Positions 22,634 to 22,860 of a stretch of DNA of 22,860 nt are shown here, piece after piece (position 1 is the stretch's first letter; each line of letters opens with the position of its first letter). Under the pieces are notes generated by a model. That model was not told where the DNA came from. It ran no database searches and saw only the letters and a list, made by a program, of their open reading frames with translations. Position numbers and translations under genes: made by a program. Source of the DNA: a virus; the IMG/VR virus record IMGVR_UViG_3300043469_000452, positions 1-22,860 of that record. The stretch is one strand, 5' to 3'.

Positions 22634-22699
22634 CTCATGTTTTCATAAGGTTTGTTAAATTAAAGCAGAAAGGACACCTCGAAAGGGGTGTTTTTTTTT
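22634..22699 (+). ncRNA. Predicted small RNA of about 65 nt with own promoter and terminator
   Basis: It starts about 5 bases after the -7 element and ends at a terminator. At the 5' end CCTCATG (22633-22639) and CATAAGG (22644-22650) pair over a TTTT loop with one C-A mismatch. A mostly single-stranded middle (about 22651-22673) follows, then the terminator stem. No coding frame longer than a few codons exists in it. The target is unknown. It may regulate phage or host mRNA, or form part of a row of short RNA genes with the tRNA-like element. Confidence 0.5.
22674..22699 (+). terminator. Intrinsic terminator of the small RNA
   Basis: ACACCTC (22674-22680), a GAAA tetraloop and GGGGTGT (22685-22691) form a 7-bp stem with one T-G pair, followed by a T run to 22699. 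This is the clearest terminator in the window. Confidence 0.8.
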
Positions 22700-22711
22700 G
22701 TGCAAAAAGTT

Positions 22712-22719
22712 TATATTTG
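22712..22719 (+). promoter_or_regulatory. -7 element TATATTTG for the tRNA-like gene
   Basis: A perfect TAnnTTTG ends 10 bases before the acceptor-stem start at 22729, so transcription should begin close to the mature 5' end. The block AAAAGTTTATAT (22705-22716) is repeated at the window edge (22849-22860). Confidence 0.5.
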
Positions 22720-22728
22720 AATCGAAAT

Positions 22729-22839
22729 AGTTGGGTGGCGGAATTAGACGCTAATGTGGTAAGGTGTATTGCCTTGAATCAATTCGATTAGGTTGCCTGC
22801 GAAGTTTACACCGTGCAAGTTTCAATCTTGCCCTAACTA
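22729..22839 (+). tRNA. tRNA-like cloverleaf (class II, Leu-like), atypical
   Basis: A 7-bp acceptor stem (AGTTGGG 22729-22735 with CCTAACT 22832-22838) and a T stem (GCAAG 22815-22819 with CTTGC 22827-22831) are in correct register. TGGCGGAATT...AGACGC (22736-22751) resembles a tRNA-Leu D arm. Unusual points: the D loop lacks the usual GGT, so G18 and G19 are missing; the T loop is TTTCAAT, without C56; and 63 nt separate D and T arms. In that part GGTGTA (22763-22768) pairs with TACACC (22807-22812) around an inner AATC/GATT hairpin. No normal 7-nt anticodon loop with T33 is found and no CCA is encoded. It may be a degenerate tRNA, a tRNA mimic or a novel RNA. Confidence 0.4.
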
Positions 22840-22848
22840 TTTTAATTT

Positions 22849-22860
22849 AAAAGTTTATAT
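22849..22860 (+). repeat. Start of another copy of the promoter block at window edge
   Basis: AAAAGTTTATAT at the end of the window is identical to 22705-22716, the block that leads into the tRNA-like gene's -7 element. Another short RNA gene probably starts just outside the window. Confidence 0.4.

Follow-up and report, generated by a model that had tools for sequence, protein, structure and literature searches.

The tRNA-like RNA at positions 22729-22839 (+) of the IMG/VR record IMGVR_UViG_3300043469_000452 (hereafter the window RNA, the window being the whole stretch of 22,860 nucleotides analysed) is best explained as belonging to a widespread family of phage RNAs with a tRNA(Leu)-like shell and, where a tRNA has its anticodon arm, an unrelated, fast-changing structured domain. 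Members share a common anatomy with covarying stems, are restricted to phages, and keep or lose the contact between D loop and T loop (the elbow) on both sides together. Pattern scans identified 110 distinct RNAs of 67-240 nt on 103 viral contigs, a large family with a hypervariable centre that the initial annotation of the window had missed.

Genomic setting of the window RNA

The source record is a linear virus sequence of 22,860 bases, and PHROGs matches to terminase, portal, head protease and endolysin identify it as a tailed phage. The window RNA is located approximately 225 bases downstream of the endolysin gene and 21 bases short of the contig end. It is preceded by a hairpin (Table 1) that probably serves the lysis gene upstream as an intrinsic terminator. 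This hairpin has a predicted fold of -11.3 kcal/mol and is followed by nine T residues; one listing gives the stem on the minus strand only. TAnnTTTG is the -7 promoter motif of the Bacteroidota, and the promoter-like element upstream of the window RNA matches this motif. TAnnTTTG also occurs 6-10 nt upstream of two other members of the family (L180 and L058) and, counted within 30 nt upstream, in six members as compared to 0.95 expected. The promoter region is repeated exactly in the 12 bases at the contig end, where a further transcription unit, either an RNA or a gene located beyond the contig, could possibly start. A synteny check of the neighbouring endolysin identified 13 relatives without the RNA, which indicates that it is an accessory gene. 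Furthermore, the neighbourhood comparison revealed no neighbour gene conserved around family members and no defence or toxin genes recurrently linked to them.

Anatomy of the window RNA

The window RNA contains a 7-bp acceptor stem that abuts a 5-bp T stem without a gap, as in tRNA, and both stems are present as the initial annotation had described them. The TG dinucleotide at 22736-22737 is followed by the D stem GCG/CGC (22738-22740/22749-22751), which encloses an 8-nt loop, GAATTAGA, at the place of the tRNA-Leu counterpart GAATTGGTAGA. The T stem GCAAG/CTTGC (22815-22819/22827-22831) closes the loop TTTCAAT rather than TTCRANN. The G18-G19/U55-C56 elbow is hence missing on both sides, in agreement with the previously noted loss of the D-loop GGT and of T-loop C56. 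An anticodon arm (5 bp, 7-nt loop) is absent and the centre comprises 63 nt, including the arm GGTGTA/TACACC with its inner hairpin that had been recognised as the replacement.

Table 1. Features of the window RNA and its surroundings (positions in the window).
Feature	Position	Strand	Remarks
Probable intrinsic terminator of upstream lysis gene	22672..22700	+	hairpin ACACCTCGAAAGGGGTGT followed by T9
Promoter-like TATATTTG	22713..22720	+	matches TAnnTTTG, 8-9 nt upstream of window RNA
Complete tRNA-like RNA, from acceptor to discriminator A	22729..22839	+	
Acceptor stem 5' strand AGTTGGG	22729..22735	+	7/7 paired, one G-U
U8-G9 and D arm GCG-GAATTAGA-CGC	22736..22751	+	without G18/G19; D loop family-wide
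Single-stranded centre segment TAATGTGGTAA	22752..22762	+	identical in 5 phages
Centre helix P3 5' strand GGTGTA	22763..22768	+	three P3 pairs with changes on both sides
Inner hairpin GCCTTGAAT..ATTAGGT	22771..22793	+	conserved TG bulge
Conserved centre strand TGCCTGCGAAG	22794..22804	+	
Centre helix P3 3' strand TACACC	22807..22812	+	
U48 equivalent, Levitt partner of A15	22814	+	T in 109/110 members
T arm GCAAG-TTTCAAT-CTTGC	22815..22831	+	without U55-C56
Acceptor stem 3' strand CCTAACT	22832..22838	+	CCA not encoded
AAAAGTTTATAT	22849..22860	+	exact repeat of promoter region 22705-22716, cut by contig end

ARAGORN called neither a tRNA nor a tmRNA in the window, and a search against Rfam at the gathering threshold gave no matches in it. 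In a relaxed Rfam search, the tRNA model (RF00005) scored 21.5 bits against a cut-off of 29 bits, with the anticodon region represented by a 40-nt gap. These results exclude an ordinary tRNA in another register, an outcome that would have contradicted the initial annotation. The fold stability of the window RNA is unremarkable (z -1.4), and due to this weak thermodynamic signal the case for it rests on comparative evidence.

A phage-borne family with a conserved tRNA-like shell

The D-arm 17-mer GTGGYGGAATTAGACRC was scanned across viral contigs and found in 76 stretches, most of which display a 7-bp acceptor, TG, a D arm lacking GG, a variable centre and a T arm that runs directly into the 3' strand of the acceptor. 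Additional scans with a T-arm pattern and with D-loop variants brought the viral set to the 110 RNAs. When closure was defined strictly, a full acceptor and T arm was formed by 39 of the 63 distinct viral D-arm hits, compared to a mean of 1.5 when downstream parts were swapped among loci, none when they were shuffled, and two of 55 chromosomal hits. This closure test is the unbiased one, as the rows of the covariation alignment described below were partly chosen by pairing. The 17-mer occurs in 54 stretches in 257 Gb of prokaryote genomes, only two of which are real members, both on contigs of metagenome-assembled genomes (MAGs; Prevotella and Saprospiraceae). Since viral closure lies far above the swap, shuffle and chromosomal controls, the family is real and essentially phage-borne. 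BLAST searches with the family ends against named phages were dominated by chance coding matches or ordinary tRNA-Leu and yielded one true member, in virus vir555 (L161, BK063671.1) with Methanomicrobiales as listed host. In this genome, an annotated hypothetical protein (vir555_00017) overlaps the tRNA-like RNA, and the coding call is probably wrong. Several phages encode two such RNAs in tandem, and ordinary tRNA-Leu genes are present in some of the member-bearing phages. No description of such RNAs was found in Rfam or in the open-access literature, subscription papers being outside the scope of the search.

In an alignment of 53 members with the centre masked, 99.9% of cells are paired and 12 of 15 pairs are changed on both sides, compared to none of 500 shuffles, and in the family acceptor stem covariation extends to all seven pairs. 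The stems are therefore conserved with covariation in relatives, which supports the earlier view of a constrained molecule. Position 48, directly 5' of the T stem, is T in 109 of 110 members, a base never required by the first scan, and T8, A14 and A15 are nearly invariant. In tRNA, U8-A14 and A15-U48 are core contacts. The conservation of T48 together with T8, A14 and A15 indicates that both contacts, which are of types described for tRNA (PMC4810234), are retained in the family. The T stem GCAGG is strongly kept, and the acceptor sequences vary. CCA is encoded at the exact position in eight of 70 members (about one expected), and A is the commonest discriminator (34/70). A covariance model of the shell (R1), of the kind the initial annotation had suggested, recovers members but assigns low scores to those with long centres. 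Extra hairpins were observed within the D loop of one member (L016, reverse strand near 1744) and within the T loop of three others (L028, L039 and L002).

A hypervariable centre

The 70 centres compared fall into 59 sequence clusters and range from 20 to 193 nt in length, and the acceptor classes GAGCGYG, AGCAAGG and AGTCAGG each recur with quite different centres. The window centre was found in four further distinct RNAs (L011, L177, L179 and L180) and thus in five phages in total. Across these RNAs, its helix and inner hairpin show compensatory changes, and two unpaired strands, TAATGTGGTAAG and GCCTTGAA, are invariant. On average, centres fold slightly better than shuffled sequences (mean z -0.7, p 2e-9), and the window centre itself is not unusually stable (z -0.3). 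Twelve minimal members of 67-70 nt (L005, L012, L040, L235, L239, L240, L246, L308, L310, L349, L363 and L385) have centres of only 20-23 nt, mostly consisting of a short hairpin. Members of this class mostly carry the acceptor GAGCGYG and a hairpin loop ACAA or CATAA, followed by GAAAGTT, GGAAGGT or TGTAGTATT.

No long antisense complement to centres was found within the window, and the two unpaired strands of the window centre have no conserved complement in 118 genomes of one phylum. Pairing between GGTAA and TTGCC could form a pseudoknot in the centre, for which covariation is absent and which is not claimed here. L177 and L180 share a conserved hairpin, GCTYG-GAAAGA-CRAGC, with one compensatory change, directly 5' of the tRNA-like RNA. 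Furthermore, four contigs (L016, L022, L072 and L395) share a further tRNA-like RNA without a normal D arm (e.g. L072:4960-5065 +), which comprises the acceptor TGGGGCG/CGCTCCA, GGCACTGGGTGTGCGGAAACAGCGACGTGTAGAG and the T arm AAGGTTCGAATCCTTT; Rfam searches of L022 and L072 did not recognise it.

Coupled presence and absence of the elbow contact

All 12 anticodon-less members with D-loop GG have T loops of the TTCGA type, and U55-C56 is kept in only two of 58 members without GG (Fisher p 9e-12, shared ancestry ignored). In the wider set, T-loop C56-R57 is present in 12 of 12 members with GG in the D loop, 12 of 13 with a single G (GT) and 12 of 51 with TT; the association of C56-R57 with any D-loop G has a p value of 6e-8, likewise with shared ancestry ignored. 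The paired loss of D- and T-loop contacts that had been noted for the window RNA is thus a rule across the family. TT D loops occur mostly with T loops of the form TAnnCAAT, GT with TATCRAAT and GG with TTCRA. The centres of L011 and L180 are identical (61/61 nt). L011 combines the D loop GAATTAGA with the T loop TAAAAT and has no canonical elbow, and L180 carries the D loop GAACGGTAGA and the T loop TTCGAAT, which constitute a canonical elbow. One centre is therefore reused on shells with and without the contact. The RNA at L002:8081-8175, called as tRNA-Pro(agg) by ARAGORN, appears to be anticodon-less with a canonical elbow and is located beside another member.

Proposed function and alternative explanations

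We tentatively favour the explanation that these RNAs are natural tRNA scaffolds bearing a variable payload RNA. The RNA would be transcribed from its own promoter, and its shell would lead host tRNA maturation enzymes to trim and protect the ends, by analogy with engineered tRNA scaffolds, in which a foreign RNA inserted at the site of the anticodon arm is obtained in stable form in bacteria (PMC3753655). The central domain would be the payload, acting in trans on a target that may vary by phage, e.g. a host factor or a defence component; action in trans is likely, since no neighbour gene is conserved. The elbow is recognised by the ribosome, RNase P, RNase Z and several synthetases (PMC4810234), so that an RNA without it should escape much of the traffic handled by this machinery. 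However, since RNase P and RNase Z are among these readers, loss of the elbow could weaken the required maturation, and the trimming of the ends of elbow-less members is the weak point of the scaffold model. Covarying ends against 59 clusters among 70 centres, the constraint on the window centre in five phages, the encoded CCA, the near-universal U48, the tandem pairs and the recurrence of one acceptor class with different centres all argue for a payload-bearing scaffold. The centres of 20-23 nt, which leave little room for a payload, the two window-centre strands without conserved host complement and the ordinary stability of the window centre argue against it.

A mimic or decoy role, as proposed in the initial annotation, is possible, but the scaffold mechanism is favoured. 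As a decoy, the shell would sequester or inhibit a host enzyme or toxin acting on the tRNA acceptor, CCA end, T arm or core while real tRNAs are spared, with the centre being a mere spacer or escaping counter-evolution. The conservation of the shell while the centre changes freely, the minimal members that are almost shell alone, and the strongly kept T stem next to varying acceptors are consistent with this reading, and a role as competitive inhibitor has been proposed for YrlA RNA (PMC7790460). Nevertheless, we regard it as unlikely, given the strong constraint on the window centre in five phages and the missing recurrent link to a defence or toxin gene. Compatible with both scaffold and decoy, the altered elbow might represent a replacement contact (e.g. 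D-loop U17 with T-loop A55) preserving the L shape, with processing enzymes still reading a tRNA. The matching of D-loop and T-loop classes points in this direction, but the TT-class D loops vary too little for covariation of an exact pair, and such a contact appears quite unlikely. It is improbable that the RNA serves as an aminoacyl carrier outside the codon table, charged for instance by leucyl-tRNA synthetase (LeuRS) and delivering its amino acid to rescue or to a reaction outside the ribosome. Charging by LeuRS does not depend on the anticodon, and the Leu-type D arm, the prevalence of A as discriminator and the occasionally encoded CCA would suit such a role. However, the elbow, which LeuRS contacts (PMC4810234), is missing, the discriminator base is unconserved and the acceptor stems differ widely.

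An RNA resembling tmRNA or Y RNA would combine a tRNA domain with another functional domain and use a partner such as SmpB or Ro60, and the family shares this overall plan of an anticodon-less tRNA domain plus a second domain. Like tmRNA, it has tRNA-like ends, a long insert replacing the anticodon arm and a CCA that is sometimes encoded, and YrlA (RF02553), a bacterial Y RNA, is likewise noncoding with a tRNA-mimicking domain and has been reported in phages too. In contrast to tmRNA, the family has no tmRNA match in Rfam or ARAGORN, its centres of 20-23 nt are too short for a tag frame and its D domain differs. The YrlA model did not match the window, neither tmRNA nor YrlA gave an Rfam gathering match in 27 loci holding or neighbouring members, no other Rfam model matched, no conserved Ro-binding module was seen, and a Ro60 (TROVE) gene was detected in none of 36 member contigs, many of them fragments, with a positive control. 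We therefore consider this relationship highly improbable. A degenerate tRNA-Leu gene or pseudogene, or the remnant of a tRNA attachment site, is barely credible: the Leu-like D and T arms and the ordinary tRNA-Leu genes in some of the same phages would fit, but all stems show compensatory changes, U48 is maintained, the elbow is coupled and many independent centres exist. No integrase was identified in the window, those in seven of the 36 member contigs are distant from the RNAs wherever positions were compared, and host tRNA genes carry TTCRA T loops that differ from those of the family. The earlier proposal is thus partly supported: the covarying stems and the coupled elbow favour an RNA under constraint that has taken on another role over one in decay, and the suggested attachment-site remnant is not supported. 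The evidence disfavours decay, an attachment site, a tmRNA and a Y RNA alike.

Relation to known RNAs and significance

The family shares with tRNA-Leu (RF00005) the 7-bp acceptor, U8, the 3-bp D stem with A14-A15, the 5-bp T stem, A15-U48 and, in its commonest form, discriminator A. Unlike tRNA-Leu, the window RNA has a 63-nt centre instead of an anticodon arm, lacks G18/G19 and U55-C56, and remains below the cut-off of the model. tRNA-like noncoding RNAs are few, and tmRNA, Y RNA and the tails of plant viruses have each opened a field. Metazoan mitochondrial tRNAs without an elbow are known, which have lost the same D-loop/T-loop contact as the window RNA but retain an anticodon arm and decode codons (PMC4810234), whereas the phage RNAs have no such arm. 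The engineered tRNA scaffold (PMC3753655) likewise keeps the acceptor, T and D arms and has an arbitrary RNA substituted for the anticodon arm, but it is man-made with an intact elbow, while the phage RNAs occur naturally and in many cases have no such contact. We thus regard the phage RNAs as a new family within a known kind, the tRNA-like noncoding RNAs, with a set of features undescribed in Rfam and the open-access literature searched.

With more than 100 members and a hypervariable core in a conserved tRNA shell, the family represents a naturally occurring equivalent of the tRNA scaffold used in the laboratory. Rfam models do not cover it, with the exception of some canonical-elbow relatives that exceed the RF00005 cut-off. 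L011 and L180, which share a centre and differ in the elbow, provide a clean comparative test of the purpose of the G19-C56 contact. More speculatively, and somewhat unlikely in our judgement, phages might use the family as a modular tRNA-shaped display, in which co-loss of the elbow keeps the shell out of translation and fast-evolving domains, sometimes several per phage, are probably directed against host functions or defences. If the centres do target host defences, they would constitute a new pool of RNA counter-defences.
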